A DNA stretch of 35,924 nt from a virus: positions 1 to 35,924 of IMG/VR virus record IMGVR_UViG_3300045933_000156, one strand, 5' to 3'. Both the position numbers and the translations under genes were made by a program. Shown here piece by piece: positions 16,409 to 35,924 of this stretch (within the stretch, counting starts at the first letter, position 1; every line of letters starts with the position of its first letter). Under the pieces are notes generated by a model, which worked only from the letters and a program-made list of their open reading frames with translations, did no database searches and was not told the DNA's origin.

Positions 16409-16603
16409 TCAAACCGCCCGCGGCCAGTAGGGCCCAGGCAAATAGCCAAGCAATCCGAAAATCAGGATTAGCAGCACGATCACCAGCAGGATCACCCGGG
16501 CGATCTGCTTGAACGTCGGGTCCATCGGCAAGAGCTCGAGCAGATACCAGACGACTCCGACGATCAAAACCACGATTAGCAGCGTGACAAGCAGGCCGAT
16601 CAT
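16409..16603 (-). CDS. Small two-helix membrane protein (holin candidate)
   Basis: A 64-residue protein with two hydrophobic helices at about residues 2-24 (LLVTLLIVVLIVGVVWYLL) and 33-53 (IARVILLVIVLLILIFGLLG), joined by a short PMDPTFKQ loop. It resembles the small Thivi_2564-type membrane protein family, as far as I can judge by eye. In a phage a 64-residue, two-helix protein beside terminase is a natural holin candidate, since T7-type holin genes also lie near terminase. The ATG overlaps the large terminase stop (ATGA). An alternative is a superinfection or membrane-modifying protein. Confidence 0.75.
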   Translation of the reverse strand: MIGLLVTLLIVVLIVGVVWYLLELLPMDPTFKQIARVILLVIVLLILIFGLLGYLPGPYWPRAV

Positions 16604-18111
16604 GCGCGGGCCCTCCCTTCTGCCGAGCGGCTCCGGTGGTCGAACGGGTCGAACTCGTGGCGCGCGACGATCGGGCGCGCGTGCTGGCGGTGCGCTTGCG
16701 TGCGCTTGCGCACCTCGAAGAATTCGCCGCCGCCGAGCAGCGCGTATTGCAGCGCGTCGACGGGATGCGAGAACTCGTTTTTGTCGGGCCGGTCGTCGTA
16801 GCGGTTCTCGCCGGCGAGCAGGAAGCGGCGATAGCGGTAGCCGGAATTCATCGCCTTGCGCATGACCTTGCAGCGCGGCGACAGGATGATGCCCGGCCTT
16901 GTGCCGTCGATGGTGCGATTGAGCACGCCGCGCACGGCCTCGAGCCGGGGTTGCAGCAGGTTGCTTGGTGCGGCGCGGAAGCGGATCCCGGATTCGCCGA
17001 ACACGCCCTCGACCCAGGTGCCCTCGTCGGTCGCCGAGCGCGCCTCGGCGGTCGGGTCGCAGAACGCCTTGATGGCAAAGCCGCGATAGCGCTCGGCCAG
17101 CAGCCTGGCGAGCTGCTCGGCGAAGCGGTGCGCGCCCATGTCGCCGCCGACCAGCTCGTCGAGCACGCGCCATTGCCCGAACGCGTCGCGCTGCAGGATG
17201 ACGCCCGCCGGCGTCAGGCCGGCGTCGGCACCGATGATCAGCGGCAGGCCGGGGATCGGCGCGAGCGCATGCTCGGCGACGTGGCGCGCGTCGTTGAATT
17301 CCGGGAACACCGGCTTGCCGTCGCGCGAATAGCCGAATTCGTTGCGCACGAAACGACGCACCCACCAGTCGGCATTGCTCATGAGATTGTCGTAATAGCC
17401 CTCGGGCAATTGCTTGACGTTCTCGGCCCGGGGGTCGAGCCCGGGCGGCTGGCGGAAGAATTTCCAGTCGGCCGGGCGCTGCGCGACGAAGCTGTCATAG
17501 GTCCAGTTTTCCGTGTCGGGCGCGTTCATGTCGCACCACACCATGCCGGGCCGCGAGCCGCCGTGAAACTTGGGCGGGTAGCGCCCGACGCGCGAGCGCA
17601 CATAGGTGAGCACGTCGGGCGGCAGGCGGTCGGCCTCGTTGAGATAGCTCGCGGTGCCCTCCCAGCCGCGCATGACGTCCTCGACGCGGTGCTCGCCGAG
17701 CGCAATGAACTCGACCATGAGGTCGACCAGGCCGGCGGGGCCCAGGTCGAACACGAGCCAATGCGTCGGCGGCGGCTCGGCGCGGAACTGGCCGGCGCTG
17801 CGCGGGATCCAGTTGAACCAGGTCGCCAGCGTGGTTTTCTCGAGCGCCGGATAGGTGTCGCGGATCACGGCGAACTTGCAGCGCCGCCGCCCGTCGATCG
17901 GCGAGCGCGGCTGCTCGGCGGCGACCCAGACGGATTTGAGCAGGCTCGCCGACGTCTTGCCGCTGCCGACCGGGCCCATGATGCAGCTCACCGGCGAGCG
18001 GTCGGTGAAGAACGCGTTGCACACCGGGCCGGGCGCCCGGAAGGCAAAGCTGGTCATGTCGAGCGAGGCCGGCGGCGGCCCGGTGAAGGGATCCGGCTTA
18101 ACCGTGGTCAT
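16600..18111 (-). CDS. Terminase large subunit
   Basis: A 503-residue ATPase-nuclease that drives DNA into the procapsid. From the ATG at 18111, Walker A is at about residues 46-53 (GPVGSGKT) and a NEADRLP block follows the ATPase core. The nuclease part includes IIGADAGLTPAGVILQ and CDPTAEARS, with acidic residues in the expected order. An upstream in-frame ATG at 18138 would add nine Gly/Val-rich residues. I prefer 18111 because it overlaps an upstream stop in ATGA form. The C-terminal SHPVDALQYALL segment is typical of terminases. Confidence 0.92.
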   Translation of the reverse strand: MTTVKPDPFTGPPPASLDMTSFAFRAPGPVCNAFFTDRSPVSCIMGPVGSGKTSASLLKSVWVAAEQPRSPIDGRRRCKFAVIRDTYPALEKTTLATWFNWIPRSAGQFRAEPPPTHWLVFDLGPAGLVDLMVEFIALGEHRVEDVMRGWEGTASYLNEADRLPPDVLTYVRSRVGRYPPKFHGGSRPGMVWCDMNAPDTENWTYDSFVAQRPADWKFFRQPPGLDPRAENVKQLPEGYYDNLMSNADWWVRRFVRNEFGYSRDGKPVFPEFNDARHVAEHALAPIPGLPLIIGADAGLTPAGVILQRDAFGQWRVLDELVGGDMGAHRFAEQLARLLAERYRGFAIKAFCDPTAEARSATDEGTWVEGVFGESGIRFRAAPSNLLQPRLEAVRGVLNRTIDGTRPGIILSPRCKVMRKAMNSGYRYRRFLLAGENRYDDRPDKNEFSHPVDALQYALLGGGEFFEVRKRTQAHRQHARPIVARHEFDPFDHRSRSAEGRARA

Positions 18112-18347
18112 ACCCCGGACCCCCACCCCCATGAGCATGAGTTTTCCCGCGCAGGTAAGCGGGCGCGGTCGAATGCCGGGCTCCTTACGCGCCGCGGCCT
18201 GTCAAGGCCCCCCCGGCCGCGCCCTGGCCTGGCGCGCAAACCGCCGGCCGGCCTCGCCTGGGTTGGCGACGGCCCGGCCGGCCGGCGGGCGCGAGCCGCC
18301 AGGCGGACCGGGGCGCCGGCCGGCCTGGTGCGGCTCGAGCAGTTCAT
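18108..18347 (-). CDS. Possible 79-aa Arg/Pro/Gly-rich protein between terminase subunits
   Basis: A 79-codon frame whose ATG overlaps the small terminase stop (ATGA) and whose TGA overlaps the large terminase ATG (ATGA). It exactly bridges the 232-bp gap. Composition is low complexity and very basic (RPAGGLRARPGRGRGGLDRP). It has no recognisable domain and no clear ribosome binding site. It may be a real coupling ORF that carries ribosomes from small to large terminase, or a chance frame in extreme GC-rich DNA. Confidence 0.35.
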   Translation of the reverse strand: MNCSSRTRPAGAPVRLAARARRPAGPSPTQARPAGGLRARPGRGRGGLDRPRRVRSPAFDRARLPARENSCSWGWGSGV

Positions 18348-18985
18348 GGCCCGGGCTCGCGCGCCGGCGGCGCGGCAGGCGACGCGTCGGGCTCGGGCGG
18401 TTCCTGGCGAAGGAATTGCCCGTTAGCGCTATCCCCTTGTTTCGCCTCGCCATTCGGCGACGCGTGCAACTCGCCGCGTGCAATTTCGCCCGGCAGCAGC
18501 GGGATAAGGTCTTGATCCTGCTCGATACTGCCCGCGGCATGCGCGCCGGCCGGCATGACCGCCAGGACCAGCGGAATGGCGCTCTCGACCTGGACCTGGA
18601 GCGCCTGCGGCAGGCGCTGGTGCAGGTAGGGCGCCAGGTCGCGCATGGCGTTGAGCTGGAGCTGCATCGCCTCATGCGTGCTGCAGGCCAGCTCCTTGGC
18701 CAGCTCGGCGACCGGGCGCGAGTAGAGCTCGGCCATGCCGACCAGCGGCGAGCGATAGCGCGACAGCAGGAAATCGACCCAGGCTTCAGTGCGTTTCGCC
18801 CGGCTGCCGACCGGACGGCCATGGCGGTTGACCGCCTGGCCGGCGTCGTTGCGGGCTGGCGATAGCGGCAGCAGGCCGAGCTGCTCGGCCTCGGCCTCGA
18901 TCGGCGCCTCGAGCGCCTCGGGCAGCACGGCCTCGGCCGCGGCGGTGAGCCCGGGCCGCGTCGGATCCGGCCGGCGGTCGATCAC
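18344..18985 (-). CDS. Terminase small subunit (probable)
   Basis: A 213-residue protein with a disordered N terminus and the conserved core RTEAWVDFLLSRYRSPLVGM, LYSRPVAELAKELACSTHEA and MRDLAPYLHQRLPQALQVQ. I recognise this as the pattern of a podovirus and prophage small terminase/packaging group. The C terminus is Ala/Pro-rich. It should bind the packaging site and hand DNA to the large subunit. I chose the GTG at 18985 because GAGG lies seven bases upstream. A longer frame to 19066 would read through a perfect hairpin and looks non-coding. Confidence 0.75.
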   Translation of the reverse strand: MIDRRPDPTRPGLTAAAEAVLPEALEAPIEAEAEQLGLLPLSPARNDAGQAVNRHGRPVGSRAKRTEAWVDFLLSRYRSPLVGMAELYSRPVAELAKELACSTHEAMQLQLNAMRDLAPYLHQRLPQALQVQVESAIPLVLAVMPAGAHAAGSIEQDQDLIPLLPGEIARGELHASPNGEAKQGDSANGQFLRQEPPEPDASPAAPPAREPGP

Positions 18986-18993
18986 GGCGCACC

Positions 18994-19024
18994 TCGGTTG
19001 CGAACGCCTCGCGTTCGCAACCGA
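18994..19024. repeat. Perfect 14-bp inverted repeat just before the small terminase start
   Basis: Arms at 18994-19007 and 19011-19024 are exact reverse complements (TCGGTTGCGAACGC and its partner) around CTC. The left arm reaches into the GAGG ribosome binding site of the small terminase gene. It could be an operator, a translational attenuator, or a small-terminase recognition (pac) element. The stem is not followed by a T run on either side, so it is not a normal terminator. Confidence 0.75.
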
Positions 19025-19128
19025 TCCTGGGCCCTGCAGCAGCGGGCGCGGTGGATAAGGTGCCAAAACAACGGTTTTTCAGCCATTTGCACCAGTTTTC
19101 TCTTACCCGACCTTCGCTACAACACTTT
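19025..19128 (-). promoter_or_regulatory. AT-richer spacer upstream of the packaging operon
   Basis: This 104-bp stretch between the iteron palindrome and the terminase hairpin is noticeably AT-richer than the genes (for example 19061-19110, with CAAAACAACGGTTTTTCAG). It is the natural place for a leftward late promoter. I find no convincing -35/-10 pair, so this is a regional call only. Confidence 0.3.
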
Positions 19129-19191
19129 ACGGACTTCATGTAACATCTGAAGTCCGTAGAATTCATCTTTAACTTCAACCTGTTAGGTTCA

Positions 19192-19218
19192 AACGGACTC
19201 AACGGACTCAACGGACTC
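19192..19218 (+). repeat. Three tandem 9-bp iterons AACGGACTC
   Basis: Exact copies at 19192, 19201 and 19210 without spacers. The core CGGACT also occurs in the outer palindrome arms as CGGACTT, suggesting that one protein could bind all sites. Confidence 0.9.
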
Positions 19219-19299
19219 GCCTCGCGCGTAAGAGAATTCTGCACAACAAGGGTGCGGGTGATTCGTGGTGCTCATTTCGCGCTGTATATACGCGCGAGG

Positions 19300-19326
19300 G
19301 AGTCCGTTGAGTCCGTTGAGTCCGTT
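19300..19326 (-). repeat. Three tandem 9-bp iterons in opposite orientation
   Basis: GAGTCCGTT at 19300, 19309 and 19318, the exact reverse complement of the other set and equally far from the centre at 19259. They would position two binding arrays facing each other. Confidence 0.9.
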
Positions 19327-19392
19327 TGGCCTTAAGCTGTTACAACGACTGACGAAGTCCACGGACTTCAGATGTTACATGAAGTCCGTAGC

Positions 19393-19434
19393 TTGACGCG
19401 GCAGTGCAGCATTTTGACGCGGCAGTGCAGCATT
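19393..19434. repeat. Two tandem 21-bp repeats after the helicase gene
   Basis: TTGACGCGGCAGTGCAGCATT occurs twice head to tail (19393-19413 and 19414-19434), followed by a partial third TTG. It lies between the palindrome and the helicase stop codon. Each unit holds TGCAGCA, which with TGC forms small dyads. It may be part of the origin or of an RNA control element. Confidence 0.85.
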
Positions 19435-19440
19435 TTGCGG

Positions 19441-21384
19441 TCATCTGTTGCCTGCCTGCGTCGGCTGTTGCTCGTGTGCATCGGTCGGCTGCTGAACCAG
19501 CGCCCAAGGCACCGCCGTGCCGCGCTGCCAGCGCCCCTCGAGCCAGGTGCGGACATTACGCAAGGCGTGGCGTATGACCGGCTGGCCGGCGCGGTCGAGC
19601 ACGGCCACGCCATTGTTGTCGGCAAGCGGCGCGTAAGAACGGGCAAGGGCCTGGGTCCATACCCCTGAAACCCCCGCCGGCGAACGCCAGCGCGAATTCT
19701 CGAACAGCTTGGCGAGCGCCTGGTGCGCGGTCGCCACGAACAGGTAGCGCTCGACCGGCAAGGGCTTGCCCTGTTCATCGAGGCCGGGCGATTGCCAGAT
19801 GATCTTTAAGCCATAGGCACCCAGCACCTCGTCGGCCTCGACCTGCTTTTCGCGCAGATGGATCCACTCGCCGATGGTGCGCGGCTTGCCGTCGCGCAGC
19901 ACGGTCGATGTCTCGAGATGGTCGATCGCGCGCTGGAACTCGGGCAGCTCGTCGCTTTCGTGCTCGAGCCGCATGGCGACGAGCGCCGACACGTAGGGCT
20001 CGACCGCCTGGGGATCGTCAGGCGTCGCGTCGCCGAGCGCCAGGTCGGCGCAGGCGAGCAGGGTGCAGAACTGGTCCGCGCTGCGTCCGCTTAAGCCTGG
20101 TAGCTGGGCCCGGTAGAAGTTGAAGGTCGGCAGCAGCCGCCCGAAATTGCGCGCCAGCCGGCCGCGCAGATGCGTGCCGATTTCGGCCAGGCGCTTCGGG
20201 TCGATCGGCGGCTTTTGCCGATCGCCGAGCGGGTTTAGCTCGAGGATGGCGAGCCGCGAGCGGTCGGCCGGCAGCAGGCCGAGCAGCAGGATCGACGAGA
20301 ACATGAAACAGGCGCGGGCCAGGAACTCGGTGCCCTTGTGATCGCTGCCGCCGCGCAGCATGACGGCACCCGAACTCGCCTTGCGCGCCAGCTTCAGCAC
20401 CGCTTCGGCTTTGCTGTTGTCGGTTTCGTTCTCGAGCTCGTCGACCGCGACCGGCAGAGTCGAGTGCCCGAGCTTCTGGTAGATGCCGGCGGCCGTAGTG
20501 TCGGCCACGGCAATCATGCCCTCCGGGCCCATGACGTGCTTCAGCACGTCATGCAGGGTGCTCTTGCCGGTCGAATAGTCGCCGGTAATCCAGATGTTCG
20601 GGCGCCAGTCGAGCGCGCCGCCCAGCATGCCGGCGGCAATCCAGCCGAGCAGCAGTTGCACGGCCAGCTCGTCGCGCTGCCAGTTCCAGGCCTGCAGCAG
20701 GCGGCGCAATTCGTCGATCGCGGCCGGATCCGGCGCGGGCGCCGGGCGCAGCAGCTTCTTGCCGGCCGGATACACATAGCCGTCGATCAGCCCGGGCTTG
20801 TGCTCCTGGCCGTCGATCAGGATGGCGTCGCCGCAATGCCAGATCAGGCTGTCGCCGGCGCCGCGCCAGGCGCCGGGCCCGCGGATATTGGAGGGGTTGC
20901 AGATGCCCTTGCGCGCCGCGGCGTCCTGCATGTCGCCTTGCGCCAGCTCGGGCGCAAAGCCCTTGACCTCGCCGTCCTTGATGCGCGGCCAGCGCTCGAG
21001 CAGATAGCCGCTCTTGGGCGCGAACAGCTTGATCAGCCCGAGCCGGCTGTGATCGGCGGCGCTCAACACGCGATACTGCCCGAGCGCGTCGAGGTAATGC
21101 GCGTCGCCGCCGTTCACGCCCAGCGGCTGCACCGGGCAATCATCCCAAAGTCCGTCGGCGTTCTTCGGGTCCTTGTACGGGTAGCGAATGATAACCGGCG
21201 GCGCGTCGCCTGGCGCCGAGTCGGGCGCCGGATCCTTGGGCTTGCGCCGGCTGCGCTCGGCCTTGGGCGCCGGCTCGGGCGCGGGCTCGGTGCGCTCGCC
21301 GGATTTCTGCACGAAGTCGGCGAGGTGATGCACGGTCGCGCCGTCGACCGGCGGCGGCGGGCCGGCGGGCTCGTCGGCGCTCAT
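19441..21384 (-). CDS. Phage replication helicase/ATPase
   Basis: A 647-residue P-loop ATPase. A charged N-terminal 70 residues and a domain of about 180 residues precede the ATPase. Walker A is at about residues 264-274 (ITGDYSTGKST) and a Walker B-like block at about 307-317 (LPVAVDELENE), followed by MLRGGSDHKGTEF and a downstream Arg-rich SRLAIL segment. It resembles primase-associated phage/plasmid helicases of the D5/DUF927-like type. Its ATG overlaps the primase stop (ATGA), so primase and helicase are made together. It should unwind the template at the adjacent palindromic origin. Confidence 0.82.
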   Translation of the reverse strand: MSADEPAGPPPPVDGATVHHLADFVQKSGERTEPAPEPAPKAERSRRKPKDPAPDSAPGDAPPVIIRYPYKDPKNADGLWDDCPVQPLGVNGGDAHYLDALGQYRVLSAADHSRLGLIKLFAPKSGYLLERWPRIKDGEVKGFAPELAQGDMQDAAARKGICNPSNIRGPGAWRGAGDSLIWHCGDAILIDGQEHKPGLIDGYVYPAGKKLLRPAPAPDPAAIDELRRLLQAWNWQRDELAVQLLLGWIAAGMLGGALDWRPNIWITGDYSTGKSTLHDVLKHVMGPEGMIAVADTTAAGIYQKLGHSTLPVAVDELENETDNSKAEAVLKLARKASSGAVMLRGGSDHKGTEFLARACFMFSSILLLGLLPADRSRLAILELNPLGDRQKPPIDPKRLAEIGTHLRGRLARNFGRLLPTFNFYRAQLPGLSGRSADQFCTLLACADLALGDATPDDPQAVEPYVSALVAMRLEHESDELPEFQRAIDHLETSTVLRDGKPRTIGEWIHLREKQVEADEVLGAYGLKIIWQSPGLDEQGKPLPVERYLFVATAHQALAKLFENSRWRSPAGVSGVWTQALARSYAPLADNNGVAVLDRAGQPVIRHALRNVRTWLEGRWQRGTAVPWALVQQPTDAHEQQPTQAGNR

Positions 21385-22586
21385 GCCGAGCGCTCGCTCT
21401 GCATCGGGGCGGCGGCCGACCCGGCCGGGTCGTGTGATTCAACGGCAGGGGTTGGAAGTCCGTCTGAATCCGCGGCCGGGTCGGTCGCCTCTCGGGATCG
21501 CGCGGCCAGGACTCGCTCGTTGTGCTGCGCGACGTCGTTCACGTCCTTGAAGCCGGCCGGCACCTCGGCCACGCGGACGATGCCGTGGCGCCGGATCAGG
21601 TGATTGAGCCCGTGGCGCAGATTCGCCCTTGCGTCGTCGCCCGCGTCGTTCTGCGCCATGAAAACGATGTGCTTGAGCTGCTCGGGCAAACGCAGATTGA
21701 CCACGTTGCCGAGCGACACGGCGGCGATGACGCGCCAGGCCGGCTCGGCGCAGGCCATGGTGAGCCCGTCCTCGATGCCCTCGGTGACGATCACGATATC
21801 GTCGGGCGGCGCTTCGGCCAGTTTCGTCGCGCTCGCGCCGCGCCATAGCCGAATGCAGCCGCCCTCGCTCTGATAGCGGCCCAAGGTTTTCTTCGGTTCC
21901 TTGAGCCGCGCTTTGATCCAGCGACCGTCGTCGCGCTGCTCGAGCCAGGTGCGATGGATGCCGACCATCTTGCCGGCGGTGCTGTGAATGGCGGCCACCA
22001 TGGCGGGCAGCGGGCGCCCGACCTCGACGCAGGCAAGCCGCGGGTGAAACCGGATCGCGCCGGGATTGCGCGGCAGCCGGCGCAGATCAATCGCGCGGCC
22101 CAGCAGATACTTGTCGACCGGCGTGCCGGCGAGCTCGCGCTCGGCCTCGAGATAGCGCTGCATGGCGGAGCGCCGGTAGCGTTCCACGCGATCGGCGTCG
22201 GCCTTGCATTCCGTCTCGAGCCGGGCCGCGGCGTAACGCGTATCGGCCAGCCGGCGCGGGTCGCGATTGTCGAGCCCGAGCCACGACAGCGCCCAGGCAA
22301 ACGCCCGCTTGCGCGAGCCGCCGAACTTGACCCAGGCCACCAGGTCGAGCGCGTCGCCGTGGCGGTCGCCTTCGGCCGGGTTGAAGTCGGCCCAGATGCC
22401 GGCCTTCTCGCCGTATAGATGCACGCTCATCGAGCCGCCGTTTTTCCCGGCGGGCTGGCCGGCGAGATTGCCAACCCGATATTCGTTGCCGTCGCGATAG
22501 CCCGCCGGCAGCAGCTCGCGGCACAGCTCGAACGCCCGCGCGTTCAGCATGCGGGCCACTTGGTCGATCGGCGCCGGGGCAATCAT
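21381..22586 (-). CDS. DNA primase, Toprim type
   Basis: A 401-residue primase-like protein. The N-terminal part has GNEYRVGNLAGQPAGKNGG and GIWADFNPAEGDRHGDALDL, the pattern of phage primase N-terminal domains, but I see no Cys zinc-finger. The Toprim core has the Glu at about residue 265 (VIVTEGIEDGLTMA) and an Asp pair near 310 (MAQNDAGDDARA). It should lay primers for the phage fork. The start at 22586 is set by an ATGA overlap with the upstream 67-aa gene; longer frames upstream are non-coding-like. Its stop overlaps the helicase start. Confidence 0.85.
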   Translation of the reverse strand: MIAPAPIDQVARMLNARAFELCRELLPAGYRDGNEYRVGNLAGQPAGKNGGSMSVHLYGEKAGIWADFNPAEGDRHGDALDLVAWVKFGGSRKRAFAWALSWLGLDNRDPRRLADTRYAAARLETECKADADRVERYRRSAMQRYLEAERELAGTPVDKYLLGRAIDLRRLPRNPGAIRFHPRLACVEVGRPLPAMVAAIHSTAGKMVGIHRTWLEQRDDGRWIKARLKEPKKTLGRYQSEGGCIRLWRGASATKLAEAPPDDIVIVTEGIEDGLTMACAEPAWRVIAAVSLGNVVNLRLPEQLKHIVFMAQNDAGDDARANLRHGLNHLIRRHGIVRVAEVPAGFKDVNDVAQHNERVLAARSREATDPAADSDGLPTPAVESHDPAGSAAAPMQSERSA

Positions 22587-22786
22587 GCCGCGGCCTCGCC
22601 GGCTTCTTCCCAGGCGGTGCAATAGGTGTAGGGCTGTGCCCGGGTGAGCTGGGGCCCGTTGCGGACGTTTCGCATCCAGGCCGGGAATGGCGGCTCGCGG
22701 TCCTCGACCGGGGCCATGCATCGGCCGTGCTTCGCGTCGCGCCAGGCGGCCAGCGCGCAGGTCGTGCAGTTATGCTCGGCCCTCAC
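22583..22786 (-). CDS. Cys-rich small protein, 67 aa
   Basis: A 67-residue protein, MRAEHNCTTCALAAWRDAKH, with CTTC near residue 7, another Cys near residue 23 and one near residue 55. This is a possible zinc-binding fold. The GTG start overlaps the upstream stop (GTGA) and its stop overlaps the primase ATG (ATGA). It may supply the zinc-finger function that the primase N terminus seems to lack; that idea is inference. Confidence 0.72.
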   Translation of the reverse strand: MRAEHNCTTCALAAWRDAKHGRCMAPVEDREPPFPAWMRNVRNGPQLTRAQPYTYCTAWEEAGEAAA

Positions 22787-31121: not shown

Positions 31122-34100
31122 TCACCCGCCCCGCGTCAGGCAACCGGCCGCGAATTCGTAGCCGGCGCGCTCGGCCTGGGCCTGGTCGTCGATATCCCGG
31201 AGCGCCTCGAGCTCGGCGAGGCTCGCCGGGTCGTCGGCCCGGATCTGCCGGCGCACGGCGGCGAGCTCGGCCTCGAGCTCGGCCTGGCGCGCGGCATAGT
31301 CGGCCTCGGCCTGCACCCGGCCGGCAAGATCCTCGCCAGTGGCGCCGGCCTGGGCCCGTTCCTGGGCGAGCCGGGGCCCGCCCTCGGGCGCCGTGCGCGC
31401 TGGGCCTGGCACGTAAACCTGCGGCTCACCGAACACGGTGCGCAGAGTCTTGATAGCGTTGCCGTGGCTGTCGACGTCGCCCGGCGCCAGGTCGTCCCAG
31501 GTGATGACCACGGCGTCATGACCGCGGCGCTTGATCAGCGCGTTCATGGCGCGCTGCTCGCGGGCGATCTGCTCGGGCGACAGCCCGGCCTGGATCGGAT
31601 ATTGCCAGCCGGCCTCGCGCGCCAGCGCCTTGAACGCATCGTCGCTGCGGATCACCAGCGGGTTGCGGAATCCGGTGGTGGCAAGCTGCTCGATCTGCGG
31701 TCCGAAATACTCGGCGGCGGCGCGGCTGAAAGCGTAATACTTGCCGCCGCCGAGAACCGGCTCGGATATCGTGCCGTAAATCGAGCCCTTCTCGGGACGG
31801 CCATAGCCGCTGAACACAATCTCGGGCACTTCGGGCGGCAGCTTGACCGGCGTCTCGCCGGCAATCTGCGCCTTGACGTCGGCTGCCGCCGGCGCGCCGG
31901 CCTGCTGGCGGCGCTCCATCATGCGCGTGATCCAGGCCGGCCGCGGCTCGGCCGCGGCGGTCGTCACCGTCTCGACCGCCTGGCGAATGGCTGTTCCGGC
32001 CGCAGCCAAACGCTCGGCGGCCTCGGCCGGTGTCTTCGGCGCGGCGAGCGGCTCGGCGTCGAGTGGCCGATCGAGCGTGCGGCCGGGCTCGAGCTCGATC
32101 GCCTGCGCCGTCGGCTGCTCGCTCATCGGCGCCAGGTCAGGACGTTTGGCGGCGAGGATATCGGCGGCGCTCACCGGCGGCATGGCGTCGCCGAACAGGG
32201 TCGGGCCCGGCCGGGTCTGCATCGCCTGGTCGATGTAGCGCGACAGCCCGCCGGCGATGGCGCTGCGCGAGCGCAGCCGGGTCAACGGCTCGACCGCCGG
32301 CCGGCCCGGGCTGGCCGGCCGCGGCGGTTCATAGAACAGTTCGAGAAAGCCGCGGGCCTGCGGCGTGAGTTCGTCGCCGAACAGGCCGCGCTGGTCGGCG
32401 ATGGATTTGACCGCGATGTTTTCCCGGCGCGCCCGGTCGACGGCGTTCACGGCCGCGAGCAAATCCTGGGTGGTGTCGGTTTCGGCGATGATACGCCCGG
32501 CCCGCGCCTCGCCGCGCATGCGCACCCAATCGCCGGCGACGTCGTTGAGCGCGCCGGCGATCGGCCCGAGCGCCTCGGCCCGGGTTTCCACCAGCCGGGT
32601 CAGAAGCTGCGCGTCGTCATAGGCGATCGCCAGCATGGCGGCCTCGAGGCGTCGGCGGCCTTCCGGCGACAGCGCGCCGCTGGCGTCGAACAGGGTCGCC
32701 CGCTCGGCCACCGGCAGGCTGTCGGCGAACGCCCGGCGGAACGGCGCGTTGGCTTCGTTCTCGATATCGCCCGGGCGCAGCAGCTCGAGCGCAGTCTGCC
32801 GCATGCGCTGCGCATCGCTCCTGGCCTGCTCGGCGGCGGAAAACCGGGCGACGCCCGGCGTGTTGGCGTCGAGCGCAAAGCGCTGGCGCTCGGTCGGATT
32901 GAGCGGCGTCAGCCGCTCGCGCACCAGAACCGGATTGACCAGGCCGGTAAGATTGAAGCCGAGCCCGCGCAGGAAGCTGCGGTACTGGTCGCCGCCGACC
33001 AGTCCCTGCGCATAGGCCCGGGCGATGGCGAGCACCCGTGCGTTGCCGCTCTCGACCACGTTGTCGGGGCCGACGATCGGCGCGCCCTCCGCCGCCGACG
33101 GGTTGGGCCCGAGCAATTCGGGATTGAGCTCGGCGGCCATTTTCTGAATCTGCTCGCCGCTGGCGGCGCGGGTCCGCTCGCGCGGCTGCAGCGCCTGCGG
33201 ATAGAGCGGGTTCTCGGCGAGCTCGATCGTGTGGCTGGTCACGAGCCGGTCGAGGTCGATCACCTTCAGTCGGACGTCGATCGCGGTTCCGGTAACAGTG
33301 TGCGCGCGGGCCGTTTGTGCGGCAGCCGGGAATCCTTCATAGCCGCCGCCAATTGCTTCTCCAGCAGCTCCAATTGTCTGAGGTCGCTCTGGTCGATCAG
33401 CGCCACGTCGATCGCGGCGGCGCTGCCCGCCGACGCGCTTGGCGGCGGTGTGTTCAGGGACGTTGTTGCTGAACTCGGACCAGCTCGATATGCGCGGGTC
33501 ATTCTTGAACGCCTCGAAATTGTTGCGGGGATTGTCGCCCATGGCCAGCACGGCGTCGGGATCGGTGAAGCGCCGGATCCGGTTGAAGCGGGTAATGACG
33601 CGTTGCACCGCCTTCTCGAGCGGCAGGTCGACGAAATGCAGATGCACGTCGTAGCCCGCCTGCACCAGCGCGTTGATCCGCTTCTCGATGCTCTCGCGCG
33701 CATTGCCGGTGATCGGCAGCACCACGTTGTCGCCGTTGATCAGCGCCCGCGCCAGCACGCGCCGCGCCACCTCGTCGGCCTCCTGCTGCGTCGCCAGGCT
33801 GCCGAGGCCGGCGCGATATTCCGGGATCAGCTCCTTGATCCGCTCGGCGTCAATCTCGAGCGCGCCATGCGCGGTTTTGAGGTTGCCGGTGATGGCCGAC
33901 GATTTGCCCGAGCCGGGCAGGCCGATCACAATGTCGCCGCGCATCTGCTTGAACGCCGCGCCCTTGCCATAGGCTTCGCCTTCCCACAAATCGCGGTCGC
34001 GCTGGCGCGAAGGCGTGTCGACCATGGTCGACGGCAGGGCCTGCGCCTGGCGGCGGGCCTCGAGGATCTCGGCCGGCAGCGCCTCGCCCATGCGCCAGGT

Positions 34101-35015
34101 CGGCTCGGTGTCGAGCGTGCCCTCGACATTGACGCGCCGCCCGGTCGCCATATCGGCGACGCCCGCGCGCATGGCGCGCTCTTTGCCGTCCTGCTCGATG
34201 CGGTTGAGCTGCACCGGCGTGCGGGCCCGGTCCTCGCTCGCCGTATCGCGGGCCCAGGCGCTGATGCCGAGCCGGTCGCCGACGGCGCCGCCGACGGAAT
34301 GCAGCCCGCCGCCGAGAAAGCCGCCAAAGGCGAGATTCATCATGCTGTCGACGGCGCCGTAATCGGCCCGTTCCTGGCGCGCCGCGCCATAGATCAGCGG
34401 CTCGACCACGGCGGCGCCGGCGACGCCCTCGGCCGCGCCCAGGCCGGCCCGGGTGAGAAAGCGCCCGCCGGCGCCGGCGGCGCCGCGCAGGGCCTGCAGG
34501 TAGCGCGCCTGCGATACGATCGGAATGAACGACGAGGCGATGTTGGCGGGATCCGCCAGGCTGGCCAGCAGCCCGGCCGCGGCCTGGGTGGCAAAGCCAC
34601 CGATGCCGCCCGGGCCGCGCCGCATGATATCGCGCCGGGCAATCTCGTCGCGTTTGAGCTCGACCAGCTCCTGCGCCATGAGCTCGGGCACCTGGCCCAT
34701 GCCGATGAAGCTCAGCTCGCCCGGGATGCCGTAGCGGTTCTCCGCTTCCTCGCTCGACAGAATCCGGCTCGGCCGCTTGGCCGGCTCCCACACCTCGCCG
34801 GAAAACGCCTCCTGCCCGGTCATGGGGTCGACCACCAGATGCGGGAAATAGCTGTCGCGCTGCACCACGCGATAGAGCGACGGCACCGGGTTGCGGACCA
34901 GCCCTTCCTCGCCGCTGGCCTTGAACAGGTCGCTGTACGAGGTCGGCATGCCGGCGAGCCCACGGGCCCAGACTTCCTCATTGCGCTCGAGCGGGGCCGA
35001 CCAGATGTTCGCCAT
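31122..35015 (-). CDS. Polyvalent virion protein: Zeta-kinase, ddrB-like ParB and ADP-ribosyltransferase-like regions
   Basis: A 1297-codon gene. The first 250 residues hold hydrophobic Ala/Gly-rich stretches (FATQAAAGLLASLADPANIA), as in ejected core proteins. A Zeta-toxin-like kinase starts at about residue 360 with Walker A GLPGSGKSS and continues through LEIDAERIKELIPEYRAG. A ddrB-like ParB region spans about 575-735 (VTSHTIELAENPLYPQALQP, GAPIVGPDNVVESGNARVLA). An ADP-ribosyltransferase-like region spans about 1060-1175 (GSIYGTISEPVLGGGKYYAF, AEYFG, RRGHDAVVITWDD). The C terminus is a coiled coil. Such polyvalent proteins are thought to act on host targets after ejection. Codon third positions suggest a frameshift pair near 33310 and 33430. 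Confidence 0.8.
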   Translation of the reverse strand: MANIWSAPLERNEEVWARGLAGMPTSYSDLFKASGEEGLVRNPVPSLYRVVQRDSYFPHLVVDPMTGQEAFSGEVWEPAKRPSRILSSEEAENRYGIPGELSFIGMGQVPELMAQELVELKRDEIARRDIMRRGPGGIGGFATQAAAGLLASLADPANIASSFIPIVSQARYLQALRGAAGAGGRFLTRAGLGAAEGVAGAAVVEPLIYGAARQERADYGAVDSMMNLAFGGFLGGGLHSVGGAVGDRLGISAWARDTASEDRARTPVQLNRIEQDGKERAMRAGVADMATGRRVNVEGTLDTEPTWRMGEALPAEILEARRQAQALPSTMVDTPSRQRDRDLWEGEAYGKGAAFKQMRGDIVIGLPGSGKSSAITGNLKTAHGALEIDAERIKELIPEYRAGLGSLATQQEADEVARRVLARALINGDNVVLPITGNARESIEKRINALVQAGYDVHLHFVDLPLEKAVQRVITRFNRIRRFTDPDAVLAMGDNPRNNFEAFKNDPRISSWSEFSNNVPEHTAAKRVGGQRRRDRRGADRPERPQTIGAAGEAIGGGYEGFPAAAQTARAHTVTGTAIDVRLKVIDLDRLVTSHTIELAENPLYPQALQPRERTRAASGEQIQKMAAELNPELLGPNPSAAEGAPIVGPDNVVESGNARVLAIARAYAQGLVGGDQYRSFLRGLGFNLTGLVNPVLVRERLTPLNPTERQRFALDANTPGVARFSAAEQARSDAQRMRQTALELLRPGDIENEANAPFRRAFADSLPVAERATLFDASGALSPEGRRRLEAAMLAIAYDDAQLLTRLVETRAEALGPIAGALNDVAGDWVRMRGEARAGRIIAETDTTQDLLAAVNAVDRARRENIAVKSIADQRGLFGDELTPQARGFLELFYEPPRPASPGRPAVEPLTRLRSRSAIAGGLSRYIDQAMQTRPGPTLFGDAMPPVSAADILAAKRPDLAPMSEQPTAQAIELEPGRTLDRPLDAEPLAAPKTPAEAAERLAAAGTAIRQAVETVTTAAAEPRPAWITRMMERRQQAGAPAAADVKAQIAGETPVKLPPEVPEIVFSGYGRPEKGSIYGTISEPVLGGGKYYAFSRAAAEYFGPQIEQLATTGFRNPLVIRSDDAFKALAREAGWQYPIQAGLSPEQIAREQRAMNALIKRRGHDAVVITWDDLAPGDVDSHGNAIKTLRTVFGEPQVYVPGPARTAPEGGPRLAQERAQAGATGEDLAGRVQAEADYAARQAELEAELAAVRRQIRADDPASLAELEALRDIDDQAQAERAGYEFAAGCLTRGG

Positions 35016-35016
35016 G

Positions 35017-35924
35017 TCAGCCGGTGCCCTTCGGCCAGAATTTCGCCAGCTCGTCGCGCCGGCGGTTGGCCAGGCCCTCGAGCCGCTCGCCCTTGCGCGT
35101 GTTGACGTAAGCCATGAACCGCTCGCGCGCCTTGCCGAGCTCGCCGGCGGCAATCAGGCCGCGGAGATTGAGCGAGCCGTCTTCGTTGTAATTGCGCCGG
35201 CGGTCGCCGGGCGACAAATCCATATGCAGCCAGGAACCGCCGGTGTTGAAGGCGAGCGACGCCAGCGCGTTGCGGATGCCGGCCGGCAGATTGGGATTGA
35301 TGCGGTCGATTTCGGCGAGATAGCCGTCGAGCGACTGCACCAGCTCGCGGCGCGCCTCGGGCTCGGTGATGGTGGCGCGGCCACGGGCCGGCGTGCCGTA
35401 GCCGATATTGTCGCCGACCACATCGAAGAATTTGTTGGGCTGGAACTTCTCCCATTGCATGACGTGCTCGAGCAAACCGGCCGGCAATTCTGCCCGGGCG
35501 CCGGCGGCGGCTTTTGGCGCGGGCGCCGCGGGCGCCGGCTCGGCCGGCGGCGCGTACCACGGGCGGGCCTCGGGCAGGGTGCGCGGGATCACCTGGCGCG
35601 AGCCGGCGCCGCCCTGGCGCAGCACGGCCTCGAGCGGCGGCGCCGGCGTGTCGCCGAACATGGCGCGCTGCGTCTCGTCGGGGCCGGCGGTCAACGGCAT
35701 GTTCTTGGCGTCGGCGCCCTTGAAGCCGAGCGGCTCGAGCCGGGTCCGCGGATTGAGCGCGGCGGCATAGGCGGCGAGCTGCTTGCCATAGGCATTAGCG
35801 GCGACCTGGCTCTTGAACTTGCCCAGGTGCTGCCCGGTCGTCTTGTAGGACTCGATCGCCCGCTCGGCGGTGAGCTGCTCGCCATCGGGCCCGATGGTCG
35901 ACAGCAGCACCTCCTGGCCGTCGA
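35017..35924 (-). CDS. Internal virion protein with C-terminal lysozyme; C-terminal part, continues from position 1
   Basis: The C-terminal 302 codons of the gene that begins at 2305. The edge reads DGQEVLLSTIGPDGEQ, which completes the FNVD seen at position 1. A linker rich in Pro and Ala follows (PPAEPAPAAPAPKAAAG). From about 150 residues before the end there is a lysozyme of GH24 type: VMQWEKFQPNKFFDVVGDNI then GYGTP, with the expected Glu and, nine positions later, Asp. The usual Thr before IGYG is Asn here, with one residue less spacing, so activity may be altered. It probably loosens peptidoglycan during DNA entry. The next gene starts one base after the stop. Confidence 0.85.
   Translation of the reverse strand, partial: DGQEVLLSTIGPDGEQLTAERAIESYKTTGQHLGKFKSQVAANAYGKQLAAYAAALNPRTRLEPLGFKGADAKNMPLTAGPDETQRAMFGDTPAPPLEAVLRQGGAGSRQVIPRTLPEARPWYAPPAEPAPAAPAPKAAAGARAELPAGLLEHVMQWEKFQPNKFFDVVGDNIGYGTPARGRATITEPEARRELVQSLDGYLAEIDRINPNLPAGIRNALASLAFNTGGSWLHMDLSPGDRRRNYNEDGSLNLRGLIAAGELGKARERFMAYVNTRKGERLEGLANRRRDELAKFWPKGTG

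Follow-up and report, generated by a model that had tools for sequence, protein, structure and literature searches.

What is the function of a long, two-fold symmetric repeat array that separates the replication genes of a temperate phage from its packaging genes? The window, i.e. the whole 35.9-kb stretch of DNA analysed here, is a temperate-phage contig with a podophage-like genome, which codes for a T7-like portal, a Phage_capsid_2 capsid protein, tail and internal virion proteins, terminase, an integrase and an excisionase. It encodes TerL, portal, capsid, tail and virion proteins itself and is thus not a helper-dependent satellite of the PICI kind. As a side observation, a gene adjoining that of an internal virion protein (31122-35153, minus strand) encodes a 1343-aa protein with Zeta-toxin/AAA_33-like and ddrB-ParB domains. 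In agreement with the first-pass annotation, the array separates the primase and helicase genes from those for TerL and the TerS-like protein; it lies 51 bp past the stop of the helicase gene. Judged from sequence comparisons, it is very probably a replication origin, which the adjacent helicase would recognise through its winged-helix-like C-terminus.

Symmetry and iterons of the array

Two pairs of exact inverted arms share a common centre at 19259.0. The outer arms measure 30 nt (the two outer dyads in Table 1) and the inner arms 29 nt (19190-19218 and 19300-19328); the centre had been recognised correctly in the first-pass annotation, while the lengths of 29 and 27 nt given there were slightly too short. 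When mismatches are allowed, the palindrome arms reach 91 nt with 82% complementarity. The palindrome attains an ungapped inverted-repeat score of 51, compared to top scores of 12.5-17 in 20 shuffled windows (first-order-Markov copies of the whole window), and the symmetry reported at first sight is thus real. Each inner arm carries the 9-bp repeat AACGGACTC three times, while each outer arm is a dyad, ACGGACTTCA-N9-TGAAGTCCGT, in which two ACGGACT cores face each other. This core is common to the inner repeats and the outer dyads, so the earlier description of three 9-bp iterons per side and of outer dyads with related sequence holds. ACGGACT is found ten times in the 262 bp of the array and three times elsewhere in the 35.9 kb.

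Table 1 Features of the array and of its neighbouring genes, with positions in the window
Feature	Position	Strand	Details	Basis
Whole two-fold symmetric iteron array, putative replication origin	19128..19390		centre 19259	sequence
Outer dyad ACGGACTTCA-N9-TGAAGTCCGT	19128..19157		iteron cores 19129+, 19151-	
AT-richer spacer, outer dyad to iteron triple	19158..19189		helicase-distal side; candidate unwinding element	
Inner triple iteron	19193..19218	+	ACGGACT cores 19193, 19202, 19211; 9-bp period	
Array centre	19219..19299		81 bp; opposed CCTCGCGCGTA / TACGCGCGAGG tracts	
Inner triple iteron, inverse orientation	19301..19325	-	cores 19301, 19310, 19319	
Outer dyad, other side	19361..19390		cores 19361+, 19383-	
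Helicase/putative initiator	19441..21384	-	647 aa; SaPI-Rep/D5-like	structure model
Toprim primase	21381..22721	-		PF13362, PF23639
TerS-like gene	18344..18985	-		position ahead of TerL
Terminase large subunit	16600..18138	-		phrog_2

The array is retained in the close relatives L005/L008 and L007, from which it differs at eight positions. Four of these differences form two mirror-image pairs; in each pair, the matching iteron base is altered on either side (AACGGACTC to AACGGACTA). Two further repeats were observed in the vicinity: TTGACGCGGCAGTGCAGCATT occurs in two exact tandem copies in the gap that separates the array from the helicase stop (19393-19434; nearly identical in the close relatives), and a perfect 14-nt hairpin, TCGGTTGCGAACGC/GCGTTCGCAACCGA, lies directly upstream of the TerS-like gene (18994-19024). 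The outer dyads, with their 10-bp arms, asymmetric 9-bp spacer and inverted placement, were also considered as sites of a tyrosine recombinase, a reading that we dropped, as iteron pairs replace the dyads elsewhere.

Array layout across relatives

Helicase-based searches yielded 30 viral-contig loci and 7 bacterial-genome loci, plus further prophages (Sphingomonadales, Rhodobacterales) and plasmids; 54 non-redundant arrays at these helicase-selected loci could be clearly scored. A search based on TerS, for which narrower sets were used because the 14-member alignment was too divergent for scanning, detected an array at 36 of the 38 loci with upstream sequence, a set that partly overlaps with the helicase-selected one. 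Hence, the architecture that the first-pass annotation had suggested looking for in related phages is present in the two close relatives and far beyond them. At two TerS-selected loci, L154 and L155, TerS and the helicase are present and no clear iteron array was detected; both are candidates for a degenerate or relocated origin. Scanning genome contigs with the primase alone gave no relatives, and a distant blastn search of the array region against phages gave no matches.

One half of an array consists of a single iteron copy, followed after 22 bp by an opposed pair at 11-12 bp and after a further 40-45 bp by a pair or triple at 8-9 bp, and the two halves mirror each other around a centre of ~50-120 bp. 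Of 254 same-strand iteron spacings in the 54 arrays, 208 measure 8, 9, 11 or 12 bp, and the spacings between opposite strands peak at 22 and 40-44 bp. Individual blocks are degenerate or absent at some loci. The iteron sequence is lineage-specific (GGTAAC, AGAACC, GTGCAAC, TGAAACC, GTGTCCC, CCATACC, CACAACG and many more), and the centres of other loci are CG-alternating or contain TATATA. In the family-averaged profile, the A+T excess reaches its maximum 40-80 bp on each side of the centre; the rise thus falls between the inner and outer blocks on both sides and is strongest on the helicase-distal one. Open reading frames overlapping the array at some loci were set aside, their translations giving no evident common protein. 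Of the four loci scanned, only the window and its close relative showed long arm complementarity, and the distant relatives L014 and L015 have an array without a comparable inverted repeat. The conserved feature is the iteron layout; the long palindrome is incidental.

Helicase or terminase as partner of the iterons

Which protein, then, reads the iterons? The helicase on its own has no Pfam match, and a few of its homologues weakly match DUF927 or AAA families. It contains a Walker A motif (GDYSTGKST, ~residues 268-276), and its structure model (pLDDT 81) was placed by Foldseek nearest to the C-terminal region of NrS-1, the SaPI5 primase-helicase, poxvirus D5/E5 and SCCmec Cch (entries 6k9c, 7ola, D5/E5 and 5dgk), with low TM-scores of 0.25-0.37 over the query. 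Based on these low-scoring fold matches, the helicase qualifies as a Rep of the SF3/D5 self-loading kind, and the first-pass annotation, which had seen no Rep/O-like protein, overlooked a suitable candidate right next to the array. In the prediction, the C-terminal ~85 residues of its folded part comprise a strand, a pair of short helices and a beta-hairpin, as would suit a winged helix, and we propose that the segment around residues 545-630, which resembles a helix-turn-helix with a beta-hairpin, reads the iterons. The TerS-like gene gave no family match at the cut-offs applied, and its structure model was poor (pLDDT 55) and uninformative on DNA binding.

Phages usually have the array flanked by the helicase on one side and by the TerS-like gene on the other. 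The array end is found within ~150 bp of TerS at 47 phage loci, or at ~450-760 bp in one subgroup, and in phages its distance to TerS is steadier than that to the helicase; in L024, L107 and L030, the array sits beside TerS, 4-5.7 kb away from the helicase. At most loci the array is positioned 14-266 bp past the helicase, in some phages kilobases off, and all 35 TerS loci with more than ~800 bp of upstream sequence also contain the helicase. Where no homologue of the window's TerS is present, the array still follows the helicase at 14-266 bp or overlaps its end. The Arsenophonus plasmid L063 has the array beside the helicase, and neither TerS nor TerL was found in its 8.2 kb; in its relatives L065, L066 and L068, also from Arsenophonus, the array is again next to the helicase, with the annotated TerS ~3.3-5.9 kb off. 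The same holds for the Phaeobacter/Leisingera phage-plasmids L061/L067, which carry an unrelated HK97-type packaging module farther away. An exception is Pseudomonas phage ZRG1 (L059, 12253-12604), in which a CTAACG array is located 4.6 kb past the helicase and does not adjoin an annotated terminase. Near their annotated TerS genes, the Arsenophonus plasmids L065 (9038-9275), L066 (6987-7173) and L068 (6619-6777) carry a second, differently spaced cluster, CTACAAG, a candidate for a separate packaging site.

Covariation was analysed for 70 loci. Of the predictors compared, the 70 last alignable columns of the helicase matched iteron similarity most closely (Mantel rho 0.397). With TerS controlled for, the correlation of the helicase C-terminal columns with the iterons amounted to 0.266, and that of TerS, with the helicase C-terminal columns controlled for, to 0.114; a prior run with 46 loci agreed with this result. 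In discordant pairs with similar helicase C-termini and different TerS, the iteron was identical in 5 of 6 cases; when TerS was similar and the helicase C-terminus different, it was identical in none of 27, so that the binding sequence does not vary with TerS as a pac or cos site should. This contrast is strong, and we assign no formal probability to it since the pairs go back to a small number of independent comparisons between lineages, two in the case of the six. A telling pair is L031 and L033, whose helicases share 37% identity at the C-terminus and 65% over the rest, with 52% for TerS, and whose iterons differ. The iterons hence appear to track the helicase C-terminus and not the small terminase.

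We favour the origin because plasmids whose terminase is unrelated, distant or absent still keep the array next to the helicase, because its iterons covary with the helicase C-terminus and because an experimentally tested origin of an E. coli PICI has the same spacings; the first-pass annotation, which had offered an origin as one of two readings, gains support from these results. Computed support comprises the layout, the helicase linkage in the absence of a cognate terminase, the iteron covariation, the AT-rich flanks and the fold match. Evidence against it comes from the kilobase distances to the helicase in L024, L107, L030 and ZRG1, from the steadier array-TerS distance in phages and from L154 and L155, which showed no clear array.

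Could the origin also be a packaging start, with TerS recognising the same block or the terS-proximal flank? Such a dual use would reconcile the tight array-terS distance in phages with the helicase linkage in plasmids, and a small partial correlation of TerS with the iterons remains; the latter may, however, reflect shared ancestry alone, and our search gave no direct sign of a cut site; we regard a second role as distinctly unlikely. The main rival, as the array usually lies just ahead of terS, is a packaging start proper (pac or cos), with the iterons as binding sites of the small terminase and the centre as the place of cleavage by the large subunit. It would account for the close spacing to TerS in most phage loci and for L024, L030 and L107, where the array stays with TerS though the helicase is kilobases off. 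We nevertheless judge it very unlikely in view of the plasmids that keep the array by the helicase without a terminase or with TerS kilobases off, of the failure of similar TerS proteins to predict the iteron once the helicase C-terminus differs, and of the candidate CTACAAG sites of the Arsenophonus plasmids. The pac site of the first-pass annotation is thus disfavoured as primary function; as a second one it keeps some probability, since phages almost invariably carry the array immediately ahead of the TerS-like gene.

Highly improbable is a pRN1-type origin, cruciform or stem-loop, in which the replication protein recognises an extruded hairpin instead of the iteron sequence. The arms in the window pair well, pRN1 requires an intact stem-loop, and stem-loops 3' of the primase-helicase gene have been proposed as origins of pRN1 and Bordetella phage BIP-1 (PMC4234260). 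Both share with the array a symmetric element directly 3' of such a gene and a protein with a C-terminal winged helix (PMC4234260), but their stem-loops are described there without iterons. In our loci, iterons occur throughout and are conserved in position and orientation, with a sequence tied to the helicase C-terminus, whereas long arms are restricted as described above. A transcription-control site (operator, terminator or antiterminator) at an early/late operon boundary would suit the position between replication genes and TerS/TerL in phages, but is scarcely credible for an array that is kept on small plasmids without late genes and whose 8-9/11-12/22/42 bp grammar, common to a tested origin, it leaves unexplained.

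For the favoured replication origin, we envisage that the ACGGACT iterons are bound directly by the C-terminal winged-helix-like domain of the self-loading D5/SaPI-Rep-like helicase. Two helicase rings would assemble face to face on the symmetric halves, melting would presumably take place in the AT-rich stretches that separate inner from outer iterons, and replication, probably bidirectional, would begin with the phage primase. A bolder version holds that the arrays represent an unrecognised, widespread class of phage origins, in which strictly two-fold symmetric iterons load two head-to-head helicase rings, the iteron sequence and the winged-helix domain coevolve so rapidly that dozens of orthogonal initiator-origin pairs result, and packaging perhaps starts as well; this is conceivable, albeit doubtful. 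The analysis predicts an origin and an initiator for a broad group of temperate phages and phage-plasmids in which no initiator had been evident. Dozens of further phages and phage-derived plasmids repeat the layout with changing iteron letters and so offer matched protein-DNA pairs ready for decoding. The many diverged helicase-iteron pairs, among them closely related plasmid helicases with differing iterons, form a natural library on how a winged-helix initiator selects its DNA sequence and could also be used for building orthogonal replicons.

Comparison with known systems

The P1 pac site consists of short repeats flanking a central region near the terS gene, and PacA acts at hexamer repeats. 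Our array likewise has short repeats on both sides of a centre near terS; unlike P1 pac, it also occurs without its terminase, and its repeats follow the helicase, not TerS. Phage BcepC6B (L054, NC_005887), the TerL of which is related to that of the window, carries inverted GATAGGG/CGATAG repeats at the corresponding place: they lie at the start of the record (1-110), with gp46 (primase) on one side and TerS on the other.

P4 has two iteron sites, ori and crr. Its alpha protein combines primase and helicase functions with a C-terminal winged-helix domain that binds the origin repeats (PMC4234260). Compared by description, the phage proteins have the same functions and a predicted C-terminal winged helix, but primase and helicase are encoded by separate genes and a single symmetric site takes the place of two. 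The covariation and the predicted secondary structure favour a P4-like arrangement, in which this domain would read the iterons.

The origins of Gram-negative PICIs are located directly 3' of rep and consist of an AT-rich region between two iteron sets; the rep-ori segment of EcCICFT073 drives plasmid replication, and its organisation was deemed unique to PICIs by the authors (PMC6092414). The 'new type' of origin suggested in the first-pass annotation is therefore only partly new. The gene order xis-primase-Rep helicase-ori of EcCICFT073, SaPI5 and SaPIbov1, with terS sometimes downstream, resembles that of the phages, as do the position of ori directly 3' of rep and an AT-rich segment bordered by inverted iteron sets (PMC6092414). 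In the window, this position corresponds to the 51 bp past the helicase stop, opposed iteron sets with AT-rich sequence characterise the 54 arrays, and the helicase model resembles the SaPI5 primase-helicase. The origin of the E. coli CFT073 PICI comprises eleven GGTAGA copies with gaps of 9, 46, 22, 11, 9, 31, 11, 22, 46 and 9 bp and is nearly mirror-symmetric; with its spacings of 9, 11, 22 and 46 bp, it draws on the same distances as the phage arrays, which differ from it in block order and have four main iteron blocks around a centre of 50-120 bp and an A+T excess between inner and outer blocks rather than in the middle. Since the EcCICFT073 Rep aligns with the phage helicase around the Walker A motif only, this likeness indicates a shared design and not a demonstrated close homology. 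PICIs and SaPIs are satellites, whereas the arrays described here belong to complete phages and phage-plasmids. Most likely, the array is thus of the PICI/P4-like pri-rep-ori kind, in a variant form that is found in complete temperate phages.
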